From: Bolinopsis microptera
Taxonomy: Eukaryota > Ctenophora > Tentaculata > Lobata > Bolinopsidae
Direction of reading: 5' to 3'
Assembly: GCF_026151205.1 (NCBI RefSeq)
Contig: NC_087078.1
Coordinates: 10,182,675-10,246,674, forward strand
Length of the DNA stretch: 64,000 nucleotides
The notes below the pieces were generated by a model. It had not been told where the DNA came from, searched no databases, and was given only the letters and a program-made list of their open reading frames with translations. Of the stretch, positions 14,890 through 56,368 are shown in pieces; position 1 is the first letter of the stretch; each line of letters begins with the position of its first letter. The position numbers and the translations under genes were made by a program.

Positions 14890-14934
14890 AAGATTGAAAT
14901 TTAATCCAGCAGTGCTGGATTAAATTTCAATCTT
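14890..14934. repeat. Perfect 21-bp hairpin upstream of the reverse transcriptase
   Basis: AAGATTGAAATTTAATCCAGC (14890-14910) is followed by the loop AGT and its exact reverse complement (14914-14934). It sits about 60 bp before the RT reading frame opens and may be part of the element or of the insertion site. Confidence 0.85.
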
Positions 14935-14997
14935 ACTATATACATTTATAAAGCGAGACGATATAATATATTACACCAGGAATTAGCGGGCACGGTT

Positions 14998-17565
14998 TTG
15001 CCGAAAAAATCCAACTCGCAATCCAAACCGAAACCAGGAAGTAAGAACAGAGTCAAAAGGCACCGGATGAAGCCAAAATCCCCATGGTTTGATGGGTCAT
15101 GCATCAACAGCAAACGGGAGCTTAATAGGCTGGCTAAATCATACGGGAAAAACCCATCAAGTCAATATCTCAGGGAATTGTACTACGATACGCGTCGATC
15201 TTATAGGAAACTCATCAAGTCGAAGAGGTCTGCCTTCATTGAAGAACTCTGCAGAGACATTGAGTCAGGCAAAAATGTCAACTGGGGGAGATTCAAGAGA
15301 CTCAAACAGATGAAAACTAAAGACAGTACGCTGGACGTGTTTGATATGTTCAATTTCTGTAAATTCTTCAAAGATCTTTACAGCAAACTATATATGGACA
15401 ACCTAAAAATCACAGGGCTACAAAACGAGATGGTAAAAGACACCACGCAATCAAGCATTACGGAAATTCTCGACCATGATATCTCTTCTGAAGAGCTGTG
15501 TAACAACATCAGGACGCTTAAAAAAAATAAGGCAGTGTCCGAAGATATGATATCTAATGAGTTCCTAAAATCATCGGGAAATAACATGCAATCAGCTGTG
15601 TTGCACCTATTCAACCAATGTCTGTCATTTGGTGTCTACCCGTGGAGCACATCTGTCGTGACTCCGCTACATAAAAAGGGTAATGTTTATGACCCAAACA
15701 ACTACCGTGCGATAGCAGTGGCCAGCAACTTGGGAAAACTCTTTGCGGGAATTTTGCTCAACCGACTAATTGAATTTAGATCCGTAGTGAACCCTGATAC
15801 TCCGAACCAATTGGGTTTCTGCAAGGGTGCTCAAACAGCAGACCACATACTAACGCTTTCAACATGCATTGAAAAATATGTTAAAGTCGAAAAGAAACTA
15901 GTCTTCTCTTGCTTTGTAGACTATGCAAAGGCTTTTGACACTGTTTGTAGGGAAGCGCTACTCTACAAACTTTGGAAACTAGGAGTTCAAGGGCGATTTT
16001 TCAATTGTATGGAACACATGTACACCCATTCATCTGCAAAAATAAAACTCCTCAACAAGCTCTCTGAGAAAATTGACGTCCTCTGTGGAACAGAACAAGG
16101 GCATCCCATGTCCCCGGAACTGTTCAAATGCTTCGTACATGCCCTCTCCGAAGAACTGAACGAGCTAGATAACATCGAAGTGCCCATCATTAACTCCATC
16201 AAGGTGACACATCTGCTCTGGGCTGATGACTTAGTACTTCTGGCTTTGAATCCTGAAAGCCTACATAAAATGCTTTCTGTTCTGTACGCCTACTGTCAGG
16301 AGTGGGGCCTAGTGGTCAACATGTCTAAAACCGCTATCATGGTGTTCAACCGCGCTGGTCGTATACTCAAAGACAGCAAGACCTTCGCTTTTGGTTCAAC
16401 ACCGATCGACTCAGTTCGTGAGTACACGTACCTAGGAATGACTTTCACTCTGACAGGATCCCTGAAGGTCGCACAGTCCAAACTTAGGCAGAAAGGACTT
16501 CGGAGTTATTTTTCGCTTAAAAGCATGATAGACTTACGACACATAAGGAAAGAGATAATCTTTAAACTCTTCGATGCACTTATTGTCCCAGTAGTCTCTT
16601 ATGGATGCCAGATTTGGCTACCTCAGACATACTTCATGGGTGCCTTCTCATCGGGTAACTTTCCCAACCTAAAACAGATCAGGCAAGATCCACTAGAAAA
16701 ACTTCACATCTCGTTTCTCAAGTGGACTCTCAACGTCAATAAACAAACATCAAATGCGGCAATTTGGGGTGACACAGGACGCTACCCTTTGGCGATAGAG
16801 CTATCATCCCAAGTGTATAACTACTGGGAAAGATTAGATAAAATGGAGAAAGCTGGATCTAACAGTCTTGTGCGACATGCCTTCAAAGAGCAACGCAGCC
16901 TCAGTCTTTCTTGGAACACCAACATCGAGACTGCACGGTCGGTTCTAAACCAACCCAATGGACATCATCTAAAACTCTCACCTTCACAAATCAAAGAAGC
17001 GATGCGTTCCAACTTCAGGCAGATATGGAACACTGAGAGATGGAACAACAAGAAACTAACGTTCTACAACACCATAAAGATGAGTTTTGGCTATGAGCAG
17101 TACCTCAATATGAATCTGTCGCACGCTGAATCCAAAAAGCTGGCTCAATTCAGATCAAGCTCACACAATTTCAATTTTGAGACAGGACGTCATGGAACCC
17201 ACAAAAGAAACCAGATCGTACCTCGGATATGTAAAGCTTGCTCAACAGAGGACATGGACATGCTCGAAAATTTCGCAGAAATGCCATTCTTCGACCCCAT
17301 CATCGAAGATGAGGTACACGTCCTCCGGACCTGCTCCCTGTATGAAGACTACCGACACCGCTTTAGTCAGAGAGCCAAAACCTGTCTTTTCGCTAACTTA
17401 GAGGGGCTATTCACAGATGCCAGCCTCATAAGAGAGACAGCGAGGTTCTTGGTGAGAGCAAACAACAGGCGTTTCCCGAAGAAGGAAGTCACTAAGAAGG
17501 ATCTGCTGAAGTCCAGCTGTAAAGTCCCCGCTACACCTCAACAGAACTCCTCTGCGGACACGTGA
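14998..17565 (+). CDS. Non-LTR retrotransposon reverse transcriptase ORF, 5'-truncated
   Basis: An uninterrupted frame of about 855 codons; the first ATG in frame is at 15067 and the frame is open upstream of it. The start matches the linker usually found after the endonuclease (SPWFD, KRELNRLAK). RT motifs follow: NYRAIAV, QLGF, AFDTV, the GTEQGHPMSPELF block and the catalytic LWADDLVLL. The C-terminal part has the conserved WGDTGRYPLAIE and EDEVHVLRTC blocks of non-LTR elements, including a Cys/His-rich segment. Its role is target-primed reverse transcription of its own RNA. No endonuclease domain is found upstream, which suits the 5' truncation typical of such insertions. The lack of stops suggests a recent copy. 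Clade not assigned with confidence (CR1/Rex/Jockey-like). Confidence 0.92.
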   Translation: MPKKSNSQSKPKPGSKNRVKRHRMKPKSPWFDGSCINSKRELNRLAKSYGKNPSSQYLRELYYDTRRSYRKLIKSKRSAFIEELCRDIESGKNVNWGRFKRLKQMKTKDSTLDVFDMFNFCKFFKDLYSKLYMDNLKITGLQNEMVKDTTQSSITEILDHDISSEELCNNIRTLKKNKAVSEDMISNEFLKSSGNNMQSAVLHLFNQCLSFGVYPWSTSVVTPLHKKGNVYDPNNYRAIAVASNLGKLFAGILLNRLIEFRSVVNPDTPNQLGFCKGAQTADHILTLSTCIEKYVKVEKKLVFSCFVDYAKAFDTVCREALLYKLWKLGVQGRFFNCMEHMYTHSSAKIKLLNKLSEKIDVLCGTEQGHPMSPELFKCFVHALSEELNELDNIEVPIINSIKVTHLLWADDLVLLALNPESLHKMLSVLYAYCQEWGLVVNMSKTAIMVFNRAGRILKDSKTFAFGSTPIDSVREYTYLGMTFTLTGSLKVAQSKLRQKGLRSYFSLKSMIDLRHIRKEIIFKLFDALIVPVVSYGCQIWLPQTYFMGAFSSGNFPNLKQIRQDPLEKLHISFLKWTLNVNKQTSNAAIWGDTGRYPLAIELSSQVYNYWERLDKMEKAGSNSLVRHAFKEQRSLSLSWNTNIETARSVLNQPNGHHLKLSPSQIKEAMRSNFRQIWNTERWNNKKLTFYNTIKMSFGYEQYLNMNLSHAESKKLAQFRSSSHNFNFETGRHGTHKRNQIVPRICKACSTEDMDMLENFAEMPFFDPIIEDEVHVLRTCSLYEDYRHRFSQRAKTCLFANLEGLFTDASLIRETARFLVRANNRRFPKKEVTKKDLLKSSCKVPATPQQNSSADT

Positions 17566-32700: not shown

Positions 32701-33326
32701 TGCTTTGTAAATGTAATACGATTCTGAAATGTGAAAGCACGAAAAATAATGCAGTTCTTTCACATGGCCGTGTAGCTCAGCTGGTTAGAGCGTCGTGCTA
32801 ATAACGCGAATGTCCAGGGTTCGATCCCCTGCATGGCCAAATTTTTTTTCTCCAGTTTTTCGAAACACAATTTAGTATAGTTCTCGTATTTCAAAACAAA
32901 ACAGAAAACTGTTCATCATCACAGTATACCTTCTTAGAACAGAGTCTCTATAAGATTCAGGTGAGTGGGTTCCTGACTTGGGCTTGCACATTGGAAATGG
33001 CAGCTGCCTCAACCTGAGGGTACAGTTTCCATGAAAACACACCTTATTATCCATGTTATACATATTCTGTTATAGGTGATCTTAGACGAACATACAAAGT
33101 TTATTTGTCTTGTAATTGTATCTGTCAAACGAAAATACGTCATAAAAGTGTATATTATTCGTGTAGTAAATGAAATCGTATCTGTCTTGAACAATCTTTA
33201 ACATCTTGGCGACTATTTTACTCACCAATCCTCCAATAATTGAACGGACTCTTTGTTTGTCGTTGTGGCGTCCATTATAATCCACAGATCAGGTGCCGCT
33301 AGCGGGGGTTTAACAGCTTGAGCCAT
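26742..33326 (-). CDS. Unrecognised multi-exon gene
   Basis: I do not recognise the family. The first four exons chain in phase with good GT-AG sites: 33326-33226 (start MAQAVKPPLAAPDLW), 33013-32930, 32646-32495 (SGTFRNPEKVKMWP) and 32256-32132 (WQIKKDLASRQ, then TEYFELEPRQIDEL). A fifth exon from 30007 encodes ENDLYGVICVDRQGGNYIL and ends at or in the minisatellite. A short exon near 27440-27389 (APDSLTRQFYRF before a GTAAGT donor) and the last exon 26942-26742 (VRSDEYEHYPKRDYVG, ending IPW and a stop) fit, but the link across the array is uncertain. The LYGVICVDRQGG segment recalls roadblock/LAMTOR5-type folds only faintly. No signal peptide or membrane helix is seen. Confidence 0.6.
27736..29870 (+). 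repeat. 35-bp minisatellite, about 61 copies
   Basis: The unit is TAACCCCAGTGTGAGTTGAG followed by AGAGTGGAAGGTAAC. Variants (TAGAG for TTGAG, GGGTGG for GAGTGG, TAGCC for TAACC) recur in patterned runs, which suggests amplification of higher-order blocks. The array lies in an intron of the unrecognised minus-strand gene, directly against its fifth exon. Confidence 0.95.
30050..31605 (+). repeat. Tandem repeat of about 365 bp, four copies
   Basis: Recurring blocks such as GTCCCATTTTCAGTTTTTGAAG appear at 30244, 30609 and 30975, giving a spacing of 365-366 bp. GGAGGAAGCCCACAGCAGAAA also recurs at that spacing. The last copy is more diverged. Intronic in the unrecognised gene. Confidence 0.85.
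31616..31772 (+). repeat. 30-bp tandem repeat, five copies
   Basis: Five copies of AAAGTACCTGTTATTCTATT plus AAAAATAAAG. The in-frame reading frame here is a by-product of the 30-bp period. Confidence 0.85.
32766..32839 (+). tRNA. tRNA-Ile (AAT)
   Basis: Complete 74-nt cloverleaf. The acceptor stem GGCCGTG pairs with CATGGCC with one G-T pair. The D arm is AGCTCAGCTGGTTAGAGC, the anticodon loop CTAATAA gives anticodon AAT, the T arm is AGGGTTCGATCCCCT, and the discriminator is A. Internal A and B boxes are intact, there is no intron, and a run of T follows at once as a Pol III terminator. It lies antisense within intron 2 of the unrecognised minus-strand gene. Confidence 0.97.
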
Positions 33327-34265
33327 TGCCAGGTTCCACCTCACAACTACTGATTATAACCGCTGGTGATAACTACTCAAACTGTTTAAACAGGAGTTGG
33401 AAACTTGCACTCGTTCACTAATTACGTCACCTTCCAAACAAACTTGTGAAACAATCTCCAACAACAAAACTACAAGCCTAGTCCAGGATACAAGCTTACA
33501 GTAGGAAAGTAAACAGAGCAACTTTACTGAGCGTCCTTACGTCAATTGTTAAGACCGGGAAATGCTCAGCACTGGCTCCTAGATACTGTTGTCATGGTAA
33601 CCGTGCGCTTACTACCAATGACTCAGTTCCTGCTGCAGTTGGAGCTCCTGTACTAATGTGTCTGTGGTATCAAGATACTTTGCTTATTAATTAGCAATTA
33701 CCTTAACATTACCCTAATTAACCGTCCTAATCAGTGAAATGACCTGGATTCTGAGTGGATATACTCGATTTGAAGCTTCCCTTCCAACTTGGTTTCTTGT
33801 TGATGTATTGGTGGCGACTTAAACCAATAGAAATAAAATACGAAATTTTAATAAGATAGAAATGTAATTAAAAATATCATTATTTTGTCATAGTGAATGA
33901 GAACGTCGTCTTACTTTTAACTTTATTAGAGTCATGATAATTTCAACTTTTAAATTAAATTCCTCCCGGGTCTCATAATTCTGGAAAATTTCTACTTAAG
34001 TAGCATGAGCAAATAAAACGAGCTATATCAGCCGAAAAGCGGCAGTATTCCCAAAACTATAGAAAAATAAATACGCCCTTTCCTGTCCAATAAAGTTAAA
34101 CAACAAATTTTAAAATTGTATTTACTAGTTACTTAAAATAATGAATAATTAATTCAAATTCACAAAATCTACCTCGTCGATTAATGAACCTGCAATCATC
34201 GAAATATATATTATGTACCATCGGAATTAATCAATCTTTAATAACATTTTATCACTCGTATCGTC
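33327..34265. other. Intergenic region
   Basis: It lies between the start of the unrecognised gene and the 3' end of the RanGAP-RanBP2 fusion gene. AT-rich, with no exon recognised. Confidence 0.5.
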
Positions 34266-37200
34266 TCAAATTTGGAAAGATTTGAACAAATCGGCGCAGT
34301 CACTGATTTTATTAGTTAACACTTCCTTGTCCTTCTTAACAAAAGCAGATATAATTTTAGCACTGGACGGAGGGAAGTACTCCTGCCCGACAGCATGTGC
34401 CATCAATCTCAACATGTTCTCTACGTCAGACTCCGGTTTAAAGTTCTTCTTTTCGCTTTTGATGAGACCCATGGTGACGAGAAGCTCGTTGGTCAACATA
34501 CTGGGACTGTTTTGAGCAAAGCAGGACGAGAGCAAACTATCTACGATCTGGTGGGATGTGTTGGTGGTTTTGTTGCTCATCACCTGGGAGAGTTTCCCGA
34601 CGAAGGACGCTACGTTGCCGGGGTCAGAGCAGCCGACTGCTTCTGCGACGCTCTCTGGTTTGGTGATCTTTTCCAAGATTGCTTCAGAAGGTTCTGCTAC
34701 AAACTCTGGGTAGTCGACTGTTATTTCTACCACTGCACTTGATGCTCCGACTGTTTGTACTGCTTCTAAAGCGGGAGAGTCTGCTTTTGGAACGGTGCCA
34801 AATGAGAACCCAGCAAATAGAGATGGTTTTTCTTCCTCTTTAGCAGGAGTTTTATCCACTGGGGGAAGGGTAGGCGCTGCACCTGAGCCAAATTGGAATG
34901 TGGGCGCTGCTGATGCTGGGGCAGCAGTCCCAAATGAAAACCCAGAGCTAGGAACCTCTGGAGTGGCTACTGGTGCTGGAGTACCAAAGGAAAAGGCAGA
35001 AGCAGCTGCTGCTGGAGCTGGGACGGCTGCAGCTGTGTTGCCAAATGAGAACCCGGAAGTCGGTGGTCCGAAACTGAACCCAGACCCTCCTGTTGCTGCA
35101 GGAACTGTGGCAGCTGGGGTTCCAAATGTGAAACCTCCTATGGCAGAATTAGGCATTCCAAAATTAAACTTGGACCCGGTGCCGGAATCTGTAGTGTTGT
35201 TATCAGCTGCTTCTGGAGGAGCATCAGGGTTCGGGGTCTGACAAGCTATACACTTGTTAGCACTCTGCTCATTGGACAGATCACACGTGTTGCAGGTCCA
35301 GTTATCCTTCTGTTTTGAGAGAAATGCCGCCATGCCTCCAGCCTTAGCTGGGGCGGCAGCGGGCTCTGAGAGGTTCACTTTCTCGATAGCTTCTTCCGCT
35401 TGTTTAGCTTCTGGGTCTTCTGACAAATCCACCTGTGACGAATGTGTGTTGATATTTGAGCAATTTAAAAACAACAACAACTTATGTAATTTACAGGATT
35501 TGTAAATAACATGTAAAAGATTGCAGATTTAGAACATTTTCGTGTTTCTCTCCCGCATCTCACCTTTCCGAGGTTATTCTGACAGTCCTCAAAAGCAGCC
35601 TTGAACTGAGCGGCCGCCTCAGCCGTTTTGAACCTTGCTGCGAGCTGCTCAAATCTCGGTTCTCCCTCCGTGAAGTCAGCAAACGTGTGCCACACCCAAA
35701 ACTTGTCGTTACCTGGAAAATTTCGAGGCATAAAACTCAATTAGACGTATTGACGAAGCAACGGAATAAATAAAGCTTGTAATAATACACGAAGCAAACT
35801 GTGATTTTCTCAAGAAGAGTTTAAGTAACCCTAACCTTGGTGAGGTTTCATTTCCATCTCCGGAGTAATCAGGTGATTGCAACACAACTTTAGGATCTGC
35901 TCTCGTCTCATAAGAACCCTGCCTTTTCCCTCTTTCTTGTTCCACAATACTGATATGTCACCCAGACCCCTCTCCTTCCAGGCGCCAACATCTTTGTCAA
36001 ACCTACAAGGAAAATTTATTAAGAATTCGGGAAATGGAAACTATGCTAAATAAAACAGGCATATCATTATATGCATATAATGTAAAATCGCATGGTTGCA
36101 ATTAAATTCCTTTCCTGGTAAGAGCATTTTTCCTTGTCGCATCAAACGGGATCAATACAATTTTACACAAGAATACATATGCATAATGTTCTGCGTAGGA
36201 ATTTCTCAGTTTCTCAATTTCTCTCTATTCAAGTCAGCCACCATTGAAATTGGCACAAGGTGCAACACAATTTGACAGCTAGTACAAACCTGTACAGTTT
36301 ACAGCGGTGCGTGAACTTGGTCTCCTCGTTCTCCGTTCCTGTGTTAGTCTCCACCTTATCCAACTTCACAATGGGGTCGAACTGCACGTCTGGCTCATAT
36401 GCCTCCTCTCTGTACGCGTCACCGTCACCCACTTTCACTGGAGTCTTTTGGGGAGAGGTTTTGGCGGCAAATGCAGCTTTCTCAGCATTAGCGGCCAGTG
36501 AGGCAAAGGAGAAGGGTGCAGGTGTTGCAGGTTCGGCGGGTTTCGGTGCAGCAGGTTTTGGTGCGGCTGCAGGTTCTGGTTTCTTTGTGGGAGTGGAACC
36601 CGGCTCGGGGGACTCCTCTTTCGCTTTGGTGAATGCTTCCAGAAACTCTGCGCAGATGGCAGGGGTTTTGAATCTGACTGCCAGCTGCTCAGGTTTTGGT
36701 TCTCCTTCCGAATAATCTGAACTGGTGAACCACACGAGGGATTTGTTGCTGCCAGCATTGGGTTTCATCTCTGTTTGTTTGGTGATGAGGTGGTTGCAGC
36801 AGATCTTTAGGATGATGTCTCGTCTCATGAGAAGCCGGGATTTCTTAGTGAACTTGTTTTGGAGTACCCTGATGTCTCCAACACCACGCTCTTTCCATGC
36901 TCCAACGTCCTTGTCAAACCTGGAGATATAAACAGTCAGTTCTTTAGAGTATCTTAACTTCGTATTGTGTCGAAAAGTCACATACCTTGTCAAAAATTAT
37001 CATCAATTTATAATCTATATACGCCCAATAACCATGTCCGGATGTTACACAAGACATTATTCCTAGTTTAAAGGGACTAAAGTAAAACACCTGAACAGCT
37101 TGGCCCGATGTTTGTACAGTTCTTCATCATCCTCATCTCCTGTCTTCACCTCTACTTTCTCCAGATGAACAAGTGCCTCAAAGTGTACATCCTGTTCCCC

Positions 37201-40200
37201 TTCAGGATTGCCATCGGTTCCAGGGGCTGAGAAGAGCGCTGTACCAACCCCCTTGAACGAGTGATCAGCTGAAATATAGGTGATGAAGGTTTGATCTCTT
37301 CGTCTACAACTTACCTAATATCTACTGACTTCTAATATACATATATCTAAACTTTAAGTCTTTGAACAGTTTGCGGAGAATAATTTAATTATAGATCAGC
37401 TGAAGTTGATGAAGTATTTATCAACATACCTTCGTCCTTTTTAGCGAAGATATTAGTTCCACCCACGTTTCCAAACGAGAAGTCAGCCCCGGCCGGAGCC
37501 CCGAATCCAAATGTTTTGTTCGGATCGTCAGGTCCAACTAATTTTGGTGCAGGGGCTCCGAATACAAACGGAGCAGGAGCTGCTTTGGCTTTTTCTGGAG
37601 AGTCTTGTTTTTCTTCCTTCTCTTCTTCTTTCTCTCCTTCCTCTGCTTCTCCTTCATCGTCAGAGGGTATTCCTTCATCGTTATCGAGACCTGGTGTACA
37701 AGTTCGTTAAGTTTCAATGTCAAGTATAACAATTAGAATGAACTGCTACTTCTGGAGATGTAAAGATGGGCCACGTTCATCGTACATTCTGTCTATAAAC
37801 AACTATAATGACATAAACAATCCAATACCTGGCTTCAGCAGAGAAAGTTTAGCGACTCCTAAAGCGTCGGAAACTTTCGTCTTGCCGTCATCTCCAAAGT
37901 GGTTCCCATCAAGATCTAATGTTGTAAGAGCCCCTAGTTTTGCGCAGGCTTTGGCGATAGCTTCGCCACCATCTGACTGTATTTCGTTGTAGCTGAGTAT
38001 CAGTTCCTGAAATTTAGTTATGTCTTACAATTTGATTTCGGATCTATTTGACTTTTTCTGGCTGAATGCCAGTAAGTACTTCTTTCTACTATCACGGTAT
38101 AACACATAGCTTAAAAAGTGAACGCAATGCACATTAGGATGACTCAAGCAGCGTACTCACATCACAGAATGTTTTAAACACTTAAACTCGTTTATCTCAT
38201 TTAATTAATAATTAAATGTAATAATTGGCTAGCCGCTTATTCTTTCCCTCGTCAGAAATGTCGGATGACTTGCCAATTCTATAGTTTTGCCAAGAATCCA
38301 GATTACAGGATGAATGCTGCACGCATATTATTGGGCAGATTATGAGATTAGATAGGCTTGGTTTCAAATGTAAATGTTATACGGGGCCGGCCCACGTTTT
38401 TGGGCGGGCACATCACATGAATTCTTACAGCCAAGCAACAAAAACAGGCGTAAAGCGCGAAACGCCATTCAAAATTAAATCTTGTCATGAGTTTGTATCG
38501 CAGCGCGCTCCATACACACAACATTTAAACCGGAACAGAAAATGGGCACCTTCAATTTAGTGAGACCCTTTATATTTTCAGCAACTGCAAGAGCTCCTTT
38601 ACTCTTCACAAGACAATCACCAATGTTTAGAACCTCCAGCATCGTTGCTGAGGGAAGGGCCTGAAATAGAAGAATTGTTTGAGGAGTTAAGATGGGATTG
38701 TAAAGTTCGGCAATACAAAACCAAACGTCCAGGGGGCTGGTAATATTGAACAAAGATCAATGAAAGGAAAATGATCAGTTAATTGTCACAGTACCTCAGC
38801 GATGGCAATAGCTCCTCTAGGCGTCATAATATTGTCGTTTAGATTGAGAATCTTAAGATTTGGGCTGTGTTTGATACAGTCTGCTAGAGCTGCAATACCC
38901 TCATACTGTATACCGTTCTGGATAACTTCAATCTGTTCCAATGTACCTAGCAACTGAGGGATGAGGGTTTTAATGACATTAATTAGTTAATTAATTAATT
39001 ATTAATACTAGCTTATTTTAGGGGTGAAGATGCTTCTGTCAGTTAGTTGTACTAAGAGAGATATTGACACAGCACAGCTGTGACGATAGGTATTGTTTCT
39101 GGGGTTGAAGCTGTGTCAACTGACTTTTAGTGTGAGGAGTGACGGAGTCAATATAGTCAGCTTGTTGTACTGACAAGCTAAATAGAGATATTAAACACTG
39201 CCAGTTTATTGTACTAGTAAGCTATGAAAGAGAGAACTAAAGTGCTGTTAATTGTAATAACAAGCTACTAAAGAGGTAAGTGCCGACTCACCGAGAAAGC
39301 GGCTCCCAGCGCTTTAGCACCAGGATTCTCAAGTCTGTTTCGACCAGCGATAAACGTTCTCAGATCAAGTGATTTACCCGCTTTCTTTGCTCGAGCATGG
39401 TTTGCTGTCAGACAATCCGCTATTATCTAAAAAATATGTCGAGTAAATATTAAATTAGACATTTTTAACACACAAATACTGTCTCTTTTTTTCATCAACT
39501 ATCAAAACTAACCATCGACACAGCTCTAAGATCCACAATTACCCAAAAATTAAACATTAACAACTAACCACGCCACCACCACCCAGTCCGTTATTCTGGA
39601 ACTTCAGCGTTTGTATAGTGTACGCTACAGGGCTAGTCAACAACCCTCTGATCGCTTCCGCACCGTCAGGACCGAACGCGTTATCAGACAGATCCAGCTC
39701 TACTAGCTGTGTGTTAGCTATTATCATGGCGCTCGAGAGGGAGCGCAGGACTGCGGGGATCTCTGAGCGGAGTCTACCTGTGAACATGTCCTTCCACAGG
39801 GCAAACTGAAAGAGGGGGTTAGCAGGGTTAGCAGGGTTGGGGGAGGGAGTAAGCAGGGTTCCGGTGTTCTTGGTAACACGTTAAATTCGGTTAAAGAATA
39901 TTATTATGATGTTCTGTACTGTTTTAAAATAAATATGCTGAAAAGAAGCAGGAAATGTTCCTACCTTGAATGTAGGTCTGCTTTGTAAAGCATTAGCTAT
40001 CTCTTGTGCGGCTTCAACACCGAGAGTGTTACCAGCTAGATTCAGGATCTCCATACTGGCACATGTCTCTATTGCTCTCACTATATCTTCAGCTGTAAAA
40101 TTTACATCTGTTACGTTTGTAATAAAAATGAAATGTTACATTTTTGGTTGTTAGTTATGATTTTTATCAGAAGTTTGAGTTTTAACAAGCTTTGAAAAAC

Positions 40201-40317
40201 TGCACTGTACATACCAAGCTGTGCATTGTCTAGTTTGAGGCCCTGCCCCTCGAATGAGACAATCCTGTCGTCCTTGACATTGAACTTGGCCAAGTTCGCT
40301 GCTAGATTATCGGCCAT
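34266..40317 (-). CDS. RANGAP1: RanGAP1-RanBP2/Nup358 fusion protein
   Basis: Thirteen exons chain in phase: 40317-40215, 40092-39965, 39805-39569, 39426-39292, 38953-38795, 38660-38550, 38006-37829, 37690-37430, 37268-37091, 36919-36290, 36002-35836, 35712-35564, 35432-34266; 3603 nt, 1200 residues. Residues about 1-350 are the RanGAP leucine-rich GAP domain (FTGR at 85-88, [15 protein letters not shown]). An acidic linker and three FxFG motifs follow. Ran-binding domain 1 spans about 450-600 (KERG, LLMRR, KPNAGS) and domain 2 about 665-812 (WVWHT, DFTEGEP). A RanBP2 zinc finger has W857 and C859, C862, C873, C876. Eight FxFG-type motifs precede the RanGAP1 C-terminal domain, with the SUMO-type site IKSE at K1137. 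It should stimulate GTP hydrolysis by Ran at the nuclear pore. Human RanGAP1 has 587 residues; the insertion lies between its two domains. Confidence 0.92.
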
Positions 40318-41603
40318 TGCTACAGCTGAGATTGTCAGGGTTGAATAACACACTTTTCAAGTTACTTTTCAAGTTACTTTTCAAGATATTCATACCAACA
40401 TTGAATGGATAGTTGAATATGATTAACAATACAGTTCATTAGTTTGAGTTTTTACAAAATAACATAAAATACGGATTAGCAAGATTTAGTGATCCGTGTA
40501 TATCCCGGAATCTAGGATCAAACACTTTAAAACACAGATAAACACCAGAGTAATACTCTTTTTGTATGAAATAACTGTAAGTTTACTGGTTCAATTGAAT
40601 AACGAAATATTTAATTGTAAAAAAGGAAGCTAATTTGATTTAAAAAGTCTTAGCATATTGGAAACTCGAACAAACAAATTCGCTGATAGGTTAAAAATAC
40701 AGTCATTCTGCGAAGAACAACACACAATATCTTCACCATATCGAAGCATCACTTTGTGAGCTAATTGCTAGCTATTCCTTCGTATGTTCAGTCTAATTAT
40801 ACGTATACCATGCTAAAGAAGTATCGAGATATACCGATCTCGGGAAGGCAAATAAATAGCAGTTAAATTAGAATATTGTATAACTTTATTCAAATCAAAA
40901 AAGGGTTTATAATTTACTTTGTAAACACTATTGATTAACTTGTAATAGGATATTGACAATTAATCTGAGTATTACTCAATTAAAATATCAATCACTAGTA
41001 ATATAAGGAGTTTTATTTTATTTAGCAACTACAAAATTCTAATAAGTTAAGTTTTGAATTACATAGATCTTGGTTCTATCACTATTCTCTAATAAGTAAT
41101 AACTCTAAAAACTGGTTTCTGAAAACTTAGATTTTATTCAATATCGCAAAAGAAATATAAAAATAACCAGTAAAATGGTAGTTATTATAATCAGTAAGTT
41201 ATTCAAGAAAATAATCAATTGTAAAAACAGCGATTGATGCAAAAAACAATTATGTAAATAGAAATGTAATTTATTAGTTAATAAATTAATTAAAAATGAA
41301 GATTTGTGGTTTGATATATTCAACGGGACAACGTTCTGTCAGTTATGAAAAATTCAATGATTCTAATGTCGATTATAAAGTAATGATCGATAAGAAAATA
41401 GGAGTTAGTTTCCATATCAAACCGAATAATTTCATAGAGTACGGTAATAAGTTAGTCAAAAATGTCACAATTCAGGTAAATATTTTAATAGAATTCCGTT
41501 CCGTACATAACGATGTCAAGGATCCGAAATCATGTGTTTCAACCCGAAAGCAACCATATAGCATGTAGCCACGACACCCCACACAAGTCGTATAGCCTTG
41601 TAG
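40318..41603. other. Intergenic region between the Ran gene and PCLAF
   Basis: AT-rich DNA holding the presumed promoter of the RanGAP fusion gene. A plus-strand ORF at 41296-41475 ends in a GTAAAT donor-like site, but I found no partner exon. Confidence 0.4.
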
Positions 41604-43919
41604 CTACATTCTGGAGCTGGGGCCAGGTTGTTCACCATCATCACTCCCCGCACTACAAACACTACCGCTACTACTGGGACCACTCTCTTCGGCATCTGAG
41701 GGGTTTAAAGGTAAGTGTACTCAACTCAACTCAGGTGAACACTGAATATTTTACATAAATGTGGATTTTGGTGGCCTAGCAATTCTGTCGGTCCCTATAA
41801 AGCTATAACACATTATCAGTCATCAGTCATTTGGTCAGCCAGTCGATAGGTTAAGTTGTAAAAACCGGTGGAACATGCTGTGTAATTAATATTTGATGGG
41901 CTGACTGATGACTGAAAACAACTGTTAAATTTCAAGTCTCACAGAAATGAACCACAGACTAACTGACTGTATATTAAATAAAACCTAAATTACACTTAAA
42001 ATGTTAACTTGAATTAAACTTGATATATCCACCAATTAGTTACCGAATATGCTAAGAACAGTAGCAGTGATGGGAGCCTCATTGAGATCTATAGTATGAG
42101 TACTGCTCTGAGAACACACCGCCTCCCCTTCCTCAGTTACACTGTCTGAGTCTTCTCCTAGCTTTGTTATTTTAGTTTCCACCTCCTTCTTCTGAAGGGG
42201 TTAGTTAGGTTAGGTTACTATACCGTTTAGGTTACTGTTTAGGTTACTATACCGTTTAGGTTACAATACTGTTTAGGTCACTGTTAAGGTTACTGTTTCA
42301 CACATAAAGATCGGTATTAAATAAGCTGAAAAGCTAAAAATCATGGCTAATTATAGGCTTATTATTGGCAGTTGCTGCTTTTTTATGTAAACTTTGTAGT
42401 TAAGGGGGCCGGGGGGGGGGGGGGGGTCTTCATCAAAATTCTCTCGAAATCGACTTTATAGTTGTTTCTGATAGAGGGGAGTGATATCTATCAGCTGCTT
42501 TTAGTCCCATGGAAAAATATTGTTCCTAGCCGAAATTATCGCTGGTCAAAGGTCAGCGCTTATGTGTAATTGTATTGCGCGAGCGATTTTCAATCACGCG
42601 TTCTGAAAATCGAGTCTAAAAATCTATCTTCTCCTACATTTTTTGAGCAATCACCCTCAAACTTTCAGGATATGTTCTTTGGATCAGTAAGAAGAGAACT
42701 CTAGAGCCAGAATTTCGAGATAGGCCTTTAAAGATTTTTAATCCGATTTTGAAATTCTTGGACCTCTAAAAATTAAGGTCCAAGAATTTCAAAATCGAAT
42801 TAAAAATCTTTAAAGGCCTATCTCAAAATTCTGGCTCTAGAGTTCTCTTCTTACTGATCCTAAGAACATATCCTGAAAGTTTGAGGGTGATCGCTCAAAA
42901 AATGTAGGATGAGATAGATTTTTAGACTCGATTTTCAGAACGCGCGATTGAAAATCGCTCGCGCAATACAATTACACATAAGCGCTGACCTTTGACCAGC
43001 GATAATTTCGGCTAGGGACAATATTTTTCCATGGGACCAAAAGCAGCTGAAAGATATCACTCCCCTCTATCAGAAACAACTATGAAGTCGATTTCGAGAG
43101 AATTTTGATGAAGACCCCCCCCCGGCCCCCTTAAGCTATATAGTACAGGGAACAAGAAGGAATCTCAATTTAGCCTCAACATTAAAATACACTGGCACAG
43201 GTATAATACTCACAAAGAAGCAGGTAATGCCCTTCTGCCACTTGGGGGCATCCCACTGAGTAGCTGCGTTACCCCCACTAGCTCTAGATTTAGCTTTACC
43301 CGCTCTACCAGGAGAGAAAACAGAGGAGACAGCTGCACTGGAGGAGGAGGAGGAGGAGCAGCCTACTGATTTCCGGGGAGCTTTAGCTGCTACCGCTGGC
43401 AGGGGAGGAGGTTTTAGGAGAGGTTTTGTGGGTTATTTGCTTTTTAATATAAAGAGTTCTATACTTGAAAGATAATGATTCATAATCGTCTCAGTTAAAA
43501 ATGTGAACCAGCCTTTTACGGAATTGTGTGAAAGTGATGTGAGAACATCTGAGTAAAGTGGCACAAATCCATTTTGAAGGGTATGTTCTATAATATTGTA
43601 GTGAAGGTAATATATCTGATGTACAAGTCTATTATAATATCATTTCTTAAAAAGTGGCCTTTCGAGGTGAACATGACATCGCTGTTCCCATGTGCATGCC
43701 CTGTTGTTAGTAAAGATGATGTGAGTATGTGACAATGATTTCAAAGCGCTGAATGTGTTCACTAACAAACCAACATTCGCCTCATGAAACCCAAACTAAT
43801 GAACACGTAACCACGTAACATGTAGTTATTGACATTACAATTATGTGACCAGCCTGCATTAGTGATGGAGCTTTGATGTTATTACCTTTGCGTTGCCCTC
43901 CTGCCATAGTCCTGACCAT
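41604..43919 (-). CDS. PCLAF: PCNA clamp-associated factor (PAF15)
   Basis: Four exons in phase: 43919-43886, 43395-43214, 42191-42044 and 41695-41604, for 151 residues (human 111). It starts MVRT like human PAF15. The APRKSVG block matches human APRKVLG; K11 and K20 correspond to K15 and K24, the monoubiquitylation sites in the human protein. The PIP box is PKWQKGITCFF, so binding to the PCNA sliding clamp at replication forks is expected. A serine run precedes the PIP box. The acidic tail is longer than in human and I see no KEN box. Intron 2 contains the TTAA-flanked palindrome. The protein is probably disordered and nuclear. Confidence 0.93.
42195..42300 (+). repeat. TTTAGGTTACTATACCG short tandem repeat
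   Basis: Imperfect repeats of GTTTAGGTTACTATACC in PCLAF intron 2. Confidence 0.7.
42404..43130. mobile_element. TTAA-flanked 727-bp palindromic element
   Basis: Arms 42404-42765 and 42776-43130 are near-perfect reverse complements around a 10-nt centre. The ends are GGGGGCCGGGGG...CCCCCGGCCCCC, and TTAA abuts both (42400-42403 and 43131-43134). A TTAA target is characteristic of piggyBac-type transposition, so a palindromic piggyBac-family MITE is a fair guess, though the ends lack its usual CCC start. It is inside PCLAF intron 2, so the pre-mRNA can form a hairpin of about 360 bp. Confidence 0.85.
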
Positions 43920-44999
43920 TTTGTCTTGATTTCCTTCCTAAAAATTGTAAATTAGTTAGTCAGTGTAAGTTCTATCACAAGAGTTATACACAATTACATT
44001 GACACATTGTGTTAATATTTCTCTAAATTGTATAATATTTAACCCAGAAATTACCATCACCAACACGCCGCGAGGGGCTATTATAATTGAAATAATCCTA
44101 GAAACTGGGGACCGTAATTTTACATTATTTACTGCACAAACTCCAATGTTTATTTCAGCGTGTTCAGCCATCCGTGAAATTTAAGTAAACTATTTCACCA
44201 TTGATATAGTTCCCAGTCCCCACAGTTACTTTCAGCAATTACCATATATTGAGTGATGATCAAACAAATTCCGCTAATTCCGCCTGGAAAGATGGCAGAC
44301 CAAACACATGAGATAAAGGTGGTGTGCAATGTTCATTTGTTAGCTCTCTTTGCAGCACTTTAAAGGGTGGTGTGCAATGTTAGCACTGGCGGCAGCAGCA
44401 CTCGGCTCTTTGCAGCACTGTAAAGGGTGGAACTTTCTGCTTGATCCGCTGTGGATCTCTAGTTATTATCTCTAGTTATTAGTTGTGGTGTACGTCTATT
44501 GATTATTCTAGCAGAGTTTCTGTAAGGTGCCATTGTTACGCAATGAGCCAGGAGCCTTTACTGTATTAACTTAACTTGTATTAAACTTAATATTATTTGT
44601 CGTGTTAACTGTTAATATAATGAACGTCAGAGTTGTAATAGAGCCGCTCCGCCCTTTGGTTGCGAATTCCATTACAAAATCAATCACATGGATTAAAAGT
44701 TAGGGACCAGATGTTGAATTTCGGCCGAGTGATCTGAGAAACGTTCAGACTTGACAGACTTCTAGCAATTTAACTTTCATTATTTTCTAGTCGTATTGTG
44801 TGACTTGGAGAAGTTAGAATGTTGACTGTCAGAAAAACTCGAAACAGATGTGCCCATGCCATGATAAGGATCGTATATTCTACAGCTTTTAGTCTGATTA
44901 TATCCTAGTCTGATTATATCCTAGTCTGATTATATCCTATCAATGTGGCACCTATTTATTTCTTACTAATTATTTTATTTGCATAAACTCACAGCAGCA
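43920..44999. other. Intergenic region upstream of PCLAF and the peptide gene
   Basis: Divergent-promoter region for PCLAF (minus) and the first cysteine-rich gene (plus). It has three copies of TAGTCTGATTATATCC at about 44890-44940 and a repeated GGTGTGCAATGTT / CTCTTTGCAGCACT pair at about 44330-44430. No coding exon. Confidence 0.5.
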
Positions 45000-45485
45000 A
45001 TGAGATACGCTATCTTCACCCTACTCTTAGCAACCCTCCTACACGTCGCTACTTCCAACCCTCAATGCAGTAAGAAAAACCTCAAGTGTAGGAGCACACT
45101 GGCTAGGAACTATATGGGATGTCTAGTGAAGGGGTTCAAGTCTAAACGTCATTGCCAGCCTCCTACTGTTATGAACCTGCCTTTTGAATCAGACTGTTGC
45201 ACCGTGAGTCAACTTATTATCTACGATTTATCTACTACATTATTTAGATCTAGTTCATCATTTTATAACGTTACAGCTAAACTACTAAAATGCAAGTTTA
45301 CATTTTCCTTATTTGCTAACTTTTGTTGAACTGTTCCAATTTAATCAATTTATTGAACATCAAGGCAAATTTTCTAACTCTCATATCAATCCCAGATCAT
45401 TGAGAAGAAACTGTTCAAGTGTATGGGCAAAGGACAGGTTACGTTTAACTGCAACGCCTACAAGGATGAGAAAGAAGATTATTAA
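45000..45485 (+). CDS. Small secreted cysteine-rich protein, copy 1
   Basis: Exon 1 (45000-45203) and exon 2 (45396-45485) encode 97 residues. I chose the ATG at 45000 rather than 44979 because it gives the same 68-codon first exon as the paralogue at 47327. An N-terminal signal peptide is followed by a mature part with eight cysteines, including one CC pair immediately before the splice site, and many lysines. Conserved blocks with copy 2 are STLARNYM, CLVKGFKSK, CQPPTV and EKKLFKC. I do not recognise the family; a secreted defence, venom or signalling peptide are all possible. Confidence 0.8.
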
Positions 45486-47326
45486 TCTTAGAAGATATCC
45501 CAAGCAGAGTTTAAAGTAGTATCACCTTGCCATGATCTTAAACTGAACATTGTGGGACTTGCTGGAAATGTGATTTAATTGTTACAACTTTAATTGACAT
45601 TTTGACTCGTTTATTAAATGGTTTTCGGTGTTACACAATATGTTATATGATATTTTTAAACATTTAATAGACAATGTATCGCATTTTTATTTTTATGGTC
45701 TTATAATAATTGATAAGAATTCAGGAAGTTTTGCCGTTCTTGCTTCTAAACTTTCACTAATTCAATAATTAAATTCCTACTGTTTTCAAAAAACCTCCAG
45801 CCAATTCAAGGTCAAAAGGAAATCGCGGCACGTGCGGAATCGCCTTTGCGAACACAATATTGACAAAAACTCATGAGGGTAAAGGAAATATTTCTACGAA
45901 CATAGTGATAGTGAAAAACTTATACAAAGGATGCCATAATGCTGGCAACATGCCGCAACCTCTAAGTAGCCACCTCTAAGTCGTACACACAAACCAACTA
46001 GCAAGTCATTACCCTACAAACCAGTATACCCCTAATTCATAATTCTATTCGTGCTGCAAATACACGGTGAGTAAAAAACTATACACTTTGTAGTTTAATA
46101 ATTAACTTTCTAATTAAATTAGAAAGTTTATCTCAATCTTTCTGAAAATTTCTAGTCAATAATCTGGATTTTTTCCTGATAGTAGCCGCAGAGTTTTTTG
46201 GAATCGGCCAAATATTTTTTCCACAATCGGCAACTCCCTGGAATACCCATTAAGAAATCCTTGCTTTTCTCAATTTTACCCTAATATTCGGCTATCTAAT
46301 TAGGACTCCAAATAAAAATATATGGTGTTCTGAATGTCAGGTCATATGGGGTTGGCCATTAGAAGTATCCTGTAAAATTGTAGAAGTTTCTGAGGGCGAT
46401 AATCGGGCAAAAATCGTCAAAATGGGCGGTTTTTCGTAATAAAATAGGCGTGGCGGTCAAATTATTAAATTTGACACCAAACAGACTTCACTACTGTGTT
46501 CCTTGATACATTTTACAACTAAAACCATAAGATTAAGATAAATTATGGTAATTTTTGTGGTTTTAAGACAGAAATTGCGCTTGAGCTAGATGTGGCTCAT
46601 TTTTGGGTATGAGGAGCGCCCCACATTACATTATCTCAATAACCAATTGATATCTTTATATGGGGACTTTTTTAGCACATCAAGGAGTGTCCAAGCTAGA
46701 TCTGTATGGAAAGATGGCATAAAATGTCTCACGAATCACCAATTACGGCAATATTTACAACCGATGAAACGTATCACAGCCACCATCTGGTTGTAAACAT
46801 GACGATATCTTATAAGGCACGTCACACTCCCGTACGTAAAACTAAATTGCGTAGCTCAACCACCAGCTGCAGTTTTGAGGATATTATTTTTCCAGATCGT
46901 TCATTTCAGTGCACAATTTGTTTTGTTAGCGGTAGCTCACATATCTTTTATCTTCATAATTCTATTCTATTTAGAGACTCTAACTGCAGTGGTGTTAGGA
47001 ATAGGGTTGCTTTTCGCAAGATAACGTTTGTTTGAAGATGATTATTGCTCTTTATAATAGTTCTAGTGATCTGTATTCGCTTACTAAACACATTTCACAT
47101 TTGTGTTGCAAAAGTTACATAATTGAATTACAGTTTCGTAATATCGATACAATCGAACCCTTATTTATGGTGCCTTGATTCACCGTGAACCTCGATTTAT
47201 CGGGAAACTAGTCTTCCTGCTTCCACTAGTCTTAATAACCGAAAAGTTCTGGTACAGTTAGTGTATCTAAATTCGTCAATAAGTTTTAATTTCGACTTGA
47301 TAATCACAGGTGCCTAGCGGCTAGCA
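45486..47326. other. Intergenic region between the peptide paralogues
   Basis: AT-rich, with only short random frames. No gene or clear repeat is recognised. Confidence 0.5.
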
Positions 47327-47885
47327 ATGAACCAAGCTATCTTCATCCTGCTTGTAGCTGTAATGTTACACTCTGCTATATCCAACTCACAATGCAGTAA
47401 TAGTAACCTCAAGTGTAAGAGTACATTGGCTAGGAACTATATGGTATGTTTGGTGAAGGGATTCAAGTCTAAGGATAAGTGCCAACCTCCTACTGTATTG
47501 GACCTGCCCTACGATACAGAGTGTTGCACGGTGAGTTTGTTTGATATCTTGATGGTGAGGTGTACACTTCACTGTTTAGTTACGGGGTTGAAATTCCATG
47601 ATAGTAACATTTGTATCTTTATAGTTGCCATATTGTGGTTGTTTTGATGACTTGTCTAAATGCTAAAGTGACATTTACAATACAAGTTTTATTCTGCGAT
47701 CATCTTACAATCAATTTCAATTCCAATTTTACATATTTTAAGATGATTAAACTGAAATCCGCTGACTTTCTGAACCATTTCAGACGATAGAAAAGAAACT
47801 GTTCAAGTGTATAAAACAAGGAAAAGTTGATTTTGATTGCAAGAAATACAGAGATGCCAATGAAGACATCCCAAACCGAGTTTAA
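47327..47885 (+). CDS. Small secreted cysteine-rich protein, copy 2
   Basis: Exons 47327-47530 and 47784-47885 encode 101 residues. The signal peptide and all eight cysteines line up with copy 1 at 45000, and the intron is at the same place and phase (0, right after the CC pair and Thr). The C-terminus is four residues longer. The same-strand arrangement 2 kb apart shows a tandem duplication. Function unknown. Confidence 0.82.
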
Positions 47886-53529: not shown

Positions 53530-55866
53530 TCACACAAATAACTGTGCTTCCTCGACTTCTTCTAATTGCTGATAAGCGTTTTTCAAATACTCCAAAATCA
53601 ACTTCCTTTCCTCAGCCTCTTCATTAGGCATAGATTCGGATAGTTTGTGACCTTTTGTTATCAATATTTGAAGGATGGATTTCAAGGACTGAAGATGTTG
53701 AGTGTAGGTAGGAGAATCTTTTGCTTCTGCCATGACGTACTTATGAAGAACTTTGGAACACTCGGTGCACTTCAAGAAGTCTTCCATTGACTTCTCAATG
53801 TGCAAAGAAGCTGAATGATATGCTTTGATAAGGTAACCGATACCCATACCAACATCCTCTCTACCATGAACATCAAGGTACATGGCAGCATAAGACCTCC
53901 ACAGATCAAAGCTTGTTGTGACTTTTGAGCTAGCAAATTTGAAGAGATCTATAATCTTGTCGTAGTACCTGATTCCTTCTTCCCCAGATACTGACGTCAT
54001 ATTATCTCTAACTGCAGACACGAGACTATTCAGTATTATTTTATCACAGTACTTCTGTCCGGTTGTTATGATTTGCCGATAAGCAAATATCATGCTTGCA
54101 AAATCTTTTATCTGAGCGGCAGCAGTCAGGAAATTCTCCCAAACTCTCCAGTTGTTAAAAGATCGCCGTGTAGCCTCTTTGAAACAGCTGAAAGCTTTAC
54201 GCAACTGTCCTGTTTTCTGAAAGCAAGCTCCCAGGTTGCTCCATGCTTCAGAATACTCGTCATCTATATGTAGAGAGGTCTGGAAACACTTGATGGCAGT
54301 CTCAAATTCTGGTATGGCAAGAGCTGTGCATCCAGCTGTGAACCACAAACCTCCCTGCAAATAGTTGCATTCCAGAGAATTCTGCATGCAGACTAAAGCC
54401 CTCCGGTACTCCTTGATGTTAAAATAGTGATATCCCAGGGACTTCATGGCTCTAGCTGACGACTCGCCTGACAGTTCCCAGGCTCTCTCGTAATGAGTGA
54501 TGTCCTGAGTTGTGTCCCCTAGGATGCAATACAATTTGGGGGTTTCACCTTGAGCAATTAGTGATCTAGTCAGCTTCTCAGCAGCCTCATATCTTCCAGA
54601 ACCAATGAGAGAGTTTATCTGCTCCTCTCTCAATTGCAACTTCTCATAGAGATCTAAAGCACTCTTGTGGGACCCAATACCTGAATACATCTCTGCAAGT
54701 ACTTTTTGTTGTTTCCACATTGGAGGAAGTCCGGATTGGAATAGACTCCCTGTTCTCGAGCAAACCTTTTTACAGTCGAACCCAAGAACCACTTCTTCCA
54801 ACTGTTCCATGCAACGGCTGAGCCTTCTAATGGATGTTTTTTCAAGTTTGCTCCTCAGAAAGTAGGCATGTGTGGCAATGCAATATGAAAATGTCCTTCC
54901 TTCTATAATTCCCTCAAGAAAGGCTATCACTTCCTCACGTAACATGTCTTCCATGGCAAAGTCCTTCAACTTGAGTGAGGCCATGTGCAACAAAAATGGA
55001 GCAGTCAGGTTTGAGACTGAGTTCTTAATATTTTCGTCCTCGAATGAGATTTTGTCCAGCAAAGTGTCGTCATTTAAATCAATGATCTGGGGTTCATTCT
55101 CTAAAGGAGTCACATCGACAACGTTTTCCTCAATGATGGTCTCAACTCTAAGTTGCGCTAAAGGTGTCTCCTGATATTTCGTTCTTTTTCCTAAGGCACC
55201 AGTGAGATTAAAGCTGAAACTAATCAGCTTTTTAGCCATCTCCATGTACCTCCGTGATTTCGAAATGTGTTGAAAGTTTAGATATACAAATCCAAACTCA
55301 ACCAAAATCTTGCATCGAACCTCTTTTGATAATGCGGCAAATTCGCTATGATCCTCTATAATGCTAATAAGTTTTTCGATGTTATCAAAGAGATCTGGAG
55401 ATAAATCATCCATCAACATTTGCTCGATGAATATGCATCGCAATTTAAACAGTTGATTGGTCAACACTGAATAATCTTGGGATGAAAAATAGTCACGACA
55501 CAGTTCAAAAAGCTTAGTGCACTTGACTAAAGGATACATTGCATTATTAATGGTACTCAAACGTTTAGTAGCAGCAGAATCCTCATCTTCAATTGACTTA
55601 AGAATATCTGCAGAAAGCAGAGGTCCAGTAAAGTTATTCTGTATAAAAACATTCAGGGCTGAAACCACCAACACTAATTTCTCATGGTCCGACTTCAGAT
55701 TTGTAAAAGAATCCAAAATGTTGGCATAACAAGCCTGATCATCTTCTACCTTGCAGATTTGCTTCATTAGTTCCCAGTAAGCACCACGTTTTATGTTATC
55801 AGAGTATTCATTGTCCGTTAGTTCGTGGAGAGACAGGGAAACTAGTGTCACTTCTGATCCAAGCAT
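53530..55866 (-). CDS. TTC27: Tetratricopeptide repeat protein 27
   Basis: A single exon of 778 residues (human about 843). The start is taken at ATG 55866 (MLGSEVTLVSLSL); just upstream CCGTACTAG could be the acceptor of an intron in the 5' leader. TPR-like helix pairs fill the C-terminal half (YHYFNIKEYRRALVCMQNSL, then GGLWFTAGCTALAIPEFETA and SEAWSNLGACFQKTG). NWRVWENFLTAAA is a family signature. TTC27 is the homologue of yeast Emw1; its biochemical role is not settled. It shares a promoter region of about 500 bp with the divergent gene at 56369. Confidence 0.92.
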   Translation of the reverse strand: MLGSEVTLVSLSLHELTDNEYSDNIKRGAYWELMKQICKVEDDQACYANILDSFTNLKSDHEKLVLVVSALNVFIQNNFTGPLLSADILKSIEDEDSAATKRLSTINNAMYPLVKCTKLFELCRDYFSSQDYSVLTNQLFKLRCIFIEQMLMDDLSPDLFDNIEKLISIIEDHSEFAALSKEVRCKILVEFGFVYLNFQHISKSRRYMEMAKKLISFSFNLTGALGKRTKYQETPLAQLRVETIIEENVVDVTPLENEPQIIDLNDDTLLDKISFEDENIKNSVSNLTAPFLLHMASLKLKDFAMEDMLREEVIAFLEGIIEGRTFSYCIATHAYFLRSKLEKTSIRRLSRCMEQLEEVVLGFDCKKVCSRTGSLFQSGLPPMWKQQKVLAEMYSGIGSHKSALDLYEKLQLREEQINSLIGSGRYEAAEKLTRSLIAQGETPKLYCILGDTTQDITHYERAWELSGESSARAMKSLGYHYFNIKEYRRALVCMQNSLECNYLQGGLWFTAGCTALAIPEFETAIKCFQTSLHIDDEYSEAWSNLGACFQKTGQLRKAFSCFKEATRRSFNNWRVWENFLTAAAQIKDFASMIFAYRQIITTGQKYCDKIILNSLVSAVRDNMTSVSGEEGIRYYDKIIDLFKFASSKVTTSFDLWRSYAAMYLDVHGREDVGMGIGYLIKAYHSASLHIEKSMEDFLKCTECSKVLHKYVMAEAKDSPTYTQHLQSLKSILQILITKGHKLSESMPNEEAEERKLILEYLKNAYQQLEEVEEAQLFV

Positions 55867-56368
55867 GGCGAACCTAGTACGGGGAGAAATTAAGTTATGT
55901 TCTGTTAAAAGCAAATTTGGTGAATATAATTAGCAAGACGTGGTCATGATGTATAGTTTACATTTGATATTATTGTGGACGTTTTGATGATAATATCACG
56001 ACAGATTAAGGGATTTTATAAAACCCAACTCCTTAAGAACTACTCCATTTCAATTAAATTGGTACCATTAGAACTTTGAGGGGACGTGTGTGACCTTGTG
56101 TTATATAATATAGAACAGCAAAATACAGATCTACGGAGACAAATTGATGGGCTAAAGCTATCAACAAAAGCCAAATTGATGAGCTCTCACCAAAAGTCTA
56201 ATTGAGGAGCCATCACAAAGTGACAAAAGTGAGCTATTACCAGGTGAACTTCCGAACAGTAATATGGTCATTCACTGAAGCAAGTTTCTCGGAAGCGTTG
56301 TTGTTAGATCTCTGTTAGACTTCACAGTTATAGCTTCACGTCGTCGACAGTCTACTCAAGGAGTGAGT
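55867..56368. promoter_or_regulatory. Bidirectional intergenic region
   Basis: About 500 bp between the start codons of TTC27 (minus) and the intronless gene at 56369 (plus). No specific box can be assigned with confidence. The AAATTGATGAGCT / AATTGAGGAGC segments repeat near 56170-56215. Confidence 0.4.

Follow-up and report, generated by a model that had tools for sequence, protein, structure and literature searches.

RanGTP is shielded from RanGAP, its GTPase-activating protein (GAP), by transport receptors until a Ran-binding domain (RanBD) binds it; RanGAP and RanBP1 form the basic disassembly machine; there is no binding between RanGAP1 and RanBP1, RanBDs acting in cis outperform those acting in trans, and phenylalanine-glycine (FG) patches bind and hold Crm1 (PMC4866044, excerpted text). 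In vertebrates, SUMO keeps RanGAP1 beside the RanBDs of RanBP2 (Nup358), and the same excerpt reports it as unsettled whether this proximity is important or RanGAP and RanBP1 in free form are enough. Regarding the human proteins, the available part of PMC12246119 describes SUMO1 on K524 of RanGAP1, an N-terminal RanGAP1 helix that docks in the nuclear export signal (NES) pocket of Crm1, a single Ran that carries both RanGAP1 and the fourth Ran-binding domain of RanBP2 (RBD4; the others accordingly RBD1 to RBD3), and C-terminal RanGAP1 helices that touch Crm1. Nup358 is marked in 12 animals and in Monosiga in a table within the accessible portion of PMC2951903. The subject of the present analysis is a gene of the ctenophore Bolinopsis microptera, located in a window of 64,000 nucleotides (the whole stretch analysed, C7:10182675-10246674, where C7 is contig NC_087078.1), in which a block of RanBP2-type domains stands between the two halves of RanGAP1.

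The gene model is a chain of 13 exons on the minus strand, running from an ATG at 40317 to a stop at 34266, with a coding sequence of 3603 nt in a single open frame of 1200 residues; its 12 introns (122-543 bases) are all of the GT-AG type, and one protein is predicted to be made from the 13 exons. Pfam matches to this protein, all exceeding the curated cut-offs, were LRR_6 (E 2.4e-23), Ran_BP1 in two stretches (E 5.4e-89), Zn_ribbon_RanBP (E 1.3e-7; 31.2 bits against a cut-off of 27) and RanGAP1_C (E 1.1e-15). In a search of PDB sequences, human RanGAP1 (9b62_G) matched residues 5-385 with 337 bits, whereas S. pombe Rna1p scored 160 bits and the best non-RanGAP leucine-rich repeat (LRR) chain 54 bits. 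Residues 1051-1184 matched the C-terminal domain of the same human chain (33.8 bits), and the best PDB matches of the two RanBDs (RanBD-A and RanBD-B) were RanBP2. R88 and N148 align with the Arg of the TGR and the Asn of the NNG motif of Rna1p. The inserted block holds the RanBP2-type inventory of two RanBDs, a RanBP2-type zinc finger and FG motifs, in the order FG (three motifs in the first linker, at 392, 410 and 421), RanBD, FG-poor linker, RanBD, zinc finger and FxFG. No match to tetratricopeptide repeats (TPRs), IR1-M or cyclophilin was found in the fused protein (Pfam, E up to 1), whose C-terminal end is RanGAP1_C in place of the cyclophilin domain of RanBP2. The domain order claimed for one phase-consistent 13-exon chain in the original prediction, which had been made by a model from the letters alone, was borne out by the exon model, Pfam and the PDB matches, including the placement of the RanBP2-like block between two RanGAP1 halves; at the level of genomic sequence, the fusion is confirmed as real and as a single gene.

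It is very improbable that two adjacent genes, one for RanGAP1 and one for the RanBDs, were merged only by the gene model. The model was built from genomic sequence, and operons in which the gaps are short occur in some invertebrates; however, RanGAP1 parts flank the RanBD block on both sides, an order that, as had been claimed, adjacent genes cannot explain. Exon 13 moreover carries the zinc finger, the FxFG motifs and RanGAP1_C together, exons 7-13 are separated by introns of only 123-287 bases, and RanBD-A has no directly preceding in-frame AUG. No Met lies between residues 261 and 528 of the fused frame, and no nearby in-frame AUG able to start an intact first RanBD was found. For exons 8, 9, 10, 11 and 13, the open run immediately preceding the exon contains no Met before a stop; that of exon 12 contains a single Met, but inside RanBD-B. 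A start codon within 37430-37690 (exon 8), which the original prediction had named as a sign of a separate gene, was not found. An exon-skipped, RanGAP1-only form was also considered: exon 13 starts in phase 0, but the end phase of both exon 7 and exon 8 is 1, so joining either of these two to exon 13 shifts the frame and cannot give such a form, which was set aside; splicing from exon 6 to exon 13 keeps the frame but drops the end of the LRR domain.

A second, inverted copy lies 0.3 Mb off on C7, where window positions 42244-32811 aligned at 99.165% identity over 9456 columns, with 34 substitutions and 8 insertions or deletions (indels) in all. This copy retains every one of the 13 exons, splice dinucleotides included. 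Of the substitutions, 6 fell in the 3603 coding bases (four synonymous and two non-synonymous, V967A and L1001P), compared with 28 in roughly 5830 noncoding ones (Fisher p 0.008); all 8 indels were noncoding (p 0.02). The copy could stem from a recent duplication or represent an uncollapsed haplotype; in both cases, constraint appears to act on the reading frame across the insert and the two RanGAP1 halves. Because the second copy shows the same chain, a single misjoin is excluded. An assembly chimera in general is extremely improbable: one assembly was the whole search base, but the same 13-exon order occurs in two copies with different flanks, RanGAP1 on both sides of the insert would require two false joins, the assembly contains no other matched RanGAP1, and the GC content at third codon positions is alike across the three parts (0.45, 0.51 and 0.45). 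(Note that one end of the inverted 9.4-kb duplication, at 32811, lies inside a tRNA-Ile gene at window 32765-32840.)

The genome (264,652,675 bases in 232 contigs) was searched exon by exon, scoring the best candidates only; 14 control genomes yielded no matches for Ran_BP1, RanGAP1_C, IR1-M or Rad60-SLD, and three for the zinc finger, which were below the cut-off. RanGAP1_C yielded two matches, the two copies of the fused gene, and the RanGAP LRR query yielded 17, of which 14 were the seven exons of each copy and three were LRRs at 27-30% identity. No match to another RanGAP1, by LRR or C-terminal domain, was obtained beyond the two fused copies, and as far as these searches reach the fused gene would be the only RanGAP1 of this animal. 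Regarding Ran_BP1, six of the eight matches were in the fused copies, one was in a separate gene (C7:11938552), and one on C2 (C2:10092505) was set aside since it resembles what we take to be RanBP3. A stand-alone RanBP1 was not found with the human RanBP1 query (E up to 1), whose 12 matches were in the fused copies (10) and in the separate gene (2); the original prediction had not anticipated this. Among the 100 Zn_ribbon_RanBP matches listed (E up to 1), each fused copy accounted for one and the separate C7 gene for none. Clusters rich in RanBP2-type zinc fingers were seen at C6:12.288-12.300 Mb, C6:18.76 Mb and C10:13.079-13.098 Mb; three frames from them, with stretches that are RG-rich or similar, resemble RNA-binding proteins that we take to be FUS/ZRANB2-like. 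Relatives outside this genome were sought with exon 3, which gave 15 pattern matches in viral_contigs and 204 in genome_contigs, none of them confirmed by tblastn.

The search for a separate RanBP2 gene found one RanBP2-like gene in this genome, on the minus strand of C7 from about 11.946 down to 11.933 Mb, 1.7 Mb from the fused gene. Its parts follow the order of human RanBP2: TPRs, frames blank in Pfam, a coiled-coil-like stretch and a proline/tyrosine-rich stretch (the last two by eye), followed by a RanBD, repeats resembling internal repeats (IR-like), a diverged second RanBD, one more repeat of the IR-like kind, repeats of the FG type and an acidic terminus. From this order and the common strand, we infer that they belong to one gene. 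The TPRs (L021:3004-3210) matched TPR_14 with 24.2 bits (cut-off 23.5) and TPR_1 with 26.2 bits, below the cut-off of 27.8; the RanBP2 TPR chain 4ga1 was among their 59 PDB matches (E 8e-4), in which designed and other TPR chains scored higher. The first RanBD scored 83.5 bits in Pfam, and the diverged second had 26% identity to human RanBP1 (E 0.002). Six IR-like repeats were recognized (motif scan, by eye). One frame that holds two of them matched IR1-M in one stretch (2.6e-7; 30.8 bits, cut-off 25), three others gave values of 0.0075, 0.038 and 0.52, below the cut-off, and the sixth had no match. The genome-wide IR1-M scan yielded a single match, in this gene (25 bits, E 0.0046); it missed the weaker repeats here, and weak IRs elsewhere are possible. 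A seventh place with LPPSFY (C7, about 11.9298 Mb) was dropped because it is without the flanking IR pattern. Each of the six repeats is followed by a C-x-G-C-x-G-C motif (L018, L023; C7, about 11.933-11.9385 Mb), possibly a metal site.

Regarding the origin of the inserted RanBDs, movement from RanBP2 into RanGAP1 is the preferred explanation on sequence comparison. It appears unlikely, though not far-fetched, that they derive instead from a captured RanBP1, with the FG motifs and the zinc finger gained separately and RanBP2 not the donor. A stand-alone RanBP1 was not found in the genome search. For RanBD-A, yeast RanBP1 (4gpt_B) scored 150.2 bits versus 149.9 for RBD4 within full human RanBP2, the best of the four human domains. 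RanBD-B scored 148.9 bits with RBD2, 148.4 with RBD4, 139.1 with RBD3 and 137.9 with RBD1, the domain that precedes the human zinc fingers. On the other hand, isolated RBD4 (4l6e_A) scored 155.2 bits with each RanBD, whereas human RanBP1 scored 135.3 and 140.6, and RanBD-B with the zinc finger aligned to human RBD1-ZnF in one stretch of 161 bits. A tree of 12 rows, including one RanBP1 and with RBD1 of the RanBP2-like gene as a long branch, made RanBD-A and RanBD-B sisters (83/86, below the mark for firm support) and placed both weakly with vertebrate RBD2-4 (76/79). RanBD-A, RanBD-B and RBD1 of the RanBP2-like gene (the last by eye), the three domains compared in this respect, all have a phase-2 intron at one shared Arg codon. 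The best reading is that the Ran-discharge domains of RanBP2 were transferred to RanGAP1 or independently gained by it.

The C-terminal domain shares 49 of 132 aligned residues with human RanGAP1. Within the acceptor window (human 516-528, LLVHMGLLKSEDK) 10 of 13 residues are identical, versus 39 of 119 elsewhere (p 0.003, for a window picked by eye); in a scan of all 13-residue windows it ranked top, tied only with windows overlapping it. The acceptor motif is retained as IKSE (LKSE in human), with K1137 corresponding to K524 and E1139 to E526, and F1176 and K1179 align with human F562 and K565, which we assume to have a role in Ubc9 binding; among the papers listed in a search on Ubc9 contacts, none named F562. 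Rad60-SLD yielded 20 matches genome-wide, many of them ubiquitin, including a tandem array on C1, and a SUMO-like exon pair was located at C1:8234089-8235414 (GIPINSVRFLFEGQRI). The conserved acceptor loop, together with the presence of the IR-bearing gene and of a SUMO-like gene, argues that SUMO docking persists. The original prediction had held that the fusion makes SUMO-dependent coupling unnecessary, which was not borne out. That the fusion replaces RanBP2 is improbable: one chain does hold GAP, RanBD and FG, and the fused protein is without IR1-M, TPR or cyclophilin matches (E up to 1), but the SUMO motif, F1176 and K1179 are kept, and TPRs, a RanBD and six IR-like repeats lie in a separate RanBP2-like gene. 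Because the SUMO loop is kept and this IR-bearing gene is separate, RanBP2 was not simply absorbed into RanGAP1.

Sequence counterparts of the GAP domain, the NES helix, the RanBDs, the FG motifs and the C-terminal RanGAP1 helices all lie on the one fused chain, and at the level of sequence this agrees with the claim of a single polypeptide with GAP activity, Ran capture and FG surface. It is predicted that the chain discharges RanGTP in cis, docks through SUMO and has taken the place of RanBP1, and the order of events is likewise a prediction. In the proposed working, the N-terminal NES helix, together with the FG motifs, would catch Crm1 or importin-beta/RanGTP complexes exiting the pore. 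A RanBD in cis would then bind RanGTP, by which the protection by the receptor would be lifted and the cargo released, and the GAP domain of the same chain would trigger hydrolysis. The chain would probably be SUMO-modified at K1137 and docked via SUMO and Ubc9 on the IR repeats of the RanBP2-like protein.

That the fused gene is a sole RanGAP1 with a RanBP2-type block, with GAP, RanBD and FG in cis and with SUMO/IR docking retained, is held with good confidence. Several points weigh against it. The second copy might not be an independent gene but an uncollapsed haplotype. Within the gene there are poly(A)-like hexamers (e.g., at 37389 and 36020), and truncated transcripts or an alternative first exon may exist. 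The grouping of the two RanBDs with vertebrate RBD2-4 is below the mark for firm support. A RanBP1 that has short exons, or that lies in a gap, might escape an exon-by-exon search. Finally, the EQTGG end of the SUMO-like gene is one frame off from the preceding residues, through an assembly error or a damaged copy. A more far-reaching version is put forward only tentatively: stand-alone RanBP1 would have been lost and the whole cytoplasmic Ran-discharge step, comprising GAP, a RanBP1-like RanBD and FG/Crm1 capture, would lie on one chain, the domains having shifted from scaffold to client, with RanBP2 left mainly as a SUMO docking rod with six IRs. If this is true, such a rod could hold several RanGAP1-RanBD chains per filament.

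The coordinates of the gene and its parts are summarized in Table 1.

Table 1. Features of the fused gene and its surroundings (positions in the window)
Feature	Position	Strand	Basis
Fused RanGAP1/RanBD gene	34266..40317	-	13 exons, GT-AG introns, Pfam
N-terminal helix aligned with human RanGAP1 LAETLAKTQV...	40243..40305	-	PDB alignment
Exons 1-7, RanGAP leucine-rich GAP domain, residues 1-350	37829..40317	-	PDB matches, LRR_6
R88, counterpart of the TGR Arg	39773..39775	-	Rna1p alignment
Exon 8, acidic linker with three FG motifs, without Met	37430..37690	-	Exon model, motif scan
RanBD-A, exons 9-10, Pfam residues 477-598	36616..37268	-	Pfam; best human RanBP2 domain RBD4
RanBD-B, exons 10-12, about residues 684-808	35576..36360	-	Pfam, RBD comparison
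RanBP2-type zinc finger, residues 855-882	35223..35306	-	Pfam
Eight FxFG motifs, residues 901-1024	34797..35168	-	Motif scan
VVEI, residues 1046-1049, which we take to resemble a SUMO-interacting motif; short, may be chance	34722..34733	-	Motif scan
RanGAP1 C-terminal domain, residues 1050-1187	34308..34721	-	Pfam; human RanGAP1 alignment
IKSE, residues 1136-1139; K1137 aligned with human SUMO acceptor K524	34452..34463	-	Alignment
Duplicated segment; second inverted copy at about C7:10518242-10527674, 99.2% identical	32811..42244	.	Genome search

Elsewhere in the window, low-density lipoprotein (LDL) receptor-A modules are joined to a rhodopsin-type receptor at 10600-14387 (+), the tail of which looks repetitive, and an 886-residue reverse transcriptase frame (RVT_1 1.7e-28) lies at 14905-17562 (+). 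Two alike, short, cysteine-rich frames with a secreted look stand in tandem at 44970-45326 and 47318-47644 (+), and a 799-residue frame with TPR repeats (TPR_2 1.1e-8) is located at 53533-55929 (-). Outside the window, ionotropic glutamate receptor frames are clustered in tandem at C3:15.86-15.94 Mb and C12:11.78-11.81 Mb, with several open over more than 900 residues. Two of the 32 ionotropic glutamate receptor matches listed in the genome were compared with PDB sequences. The ligand-binding domain of ML032222a from Mnemiopsis leidyi was the top match for one of them (L039; 187 bits versus 179 for the runner-up protein) and for the C-terminal part of the other (L036; 203.5 versus 195.6 bits), in keeping with a ctenophore genome; with the entire L036 frame, kainate receptor 2 chains led (254.8 versus 212.8 bits), the ML032222a chain spanning that domain alone.

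As the original prediction had supposed, no description of the fusion in an animal was found, here among the titles and abstract openings listed in searches of an open-licence library; database entries or uncurated models of it may exist. Within the ctenophore and RanGAP literature, the available part of PMC6177115 contains nothing on it, and the accessible portions of PMC6371224, PMC1257468 and PMC2951903 do not mention it. The locus has the appearance of a natural experiment: a covalent link unites GAP and RanBD, yet the SUMO loop and IR repeats are still kept. This points to a role of the SUMO/IR link beyond the pairing of GAP with RanBD, such as pore anchoring, E3 function or Crm1 retention; the pairing role and a further role of SUMO/IR become separable in one animal.

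Compared with soluble RanGAP and RanBP1 (PMC4866044, excerpted text), GAP and RanBD activities are likewise paired, but here on one chain and with no stand-alone RanBP1 found, whereas there two proteins are involved that do not bind each other. Human RanGAP1 (9b62_G, 591 residues) is co-linear in its LRR and C-terminal domains and shares the SUMO motif; its linker is short and acidic, whereas here about 700 residues (350-1050) including other domains take that place. In plants, the WPP domain of RanGAP is a targeting domain, and no RanBD or FG is known there. Plant RanGAP resembles the present case as a lineage-specific RanGAP addition for pore targeting (PMC11825100, available part). The vertebrate RanBP2/RanGAP1-SUMO1/Ubc9 complex has the same GAP domain, NES helix, RanBDs, FG motifs, SUMO loop and IR repeats on a TPR-bearing RanBP2. 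It differs in that here the RanBDs, the zinc finger and the FG motifs are inside RanGAP1 itself, and that, in the partner, one RanBD is good and the other diverged, the IR-like repeats number six, and none of the 100 zinc-finger matches listed is present.

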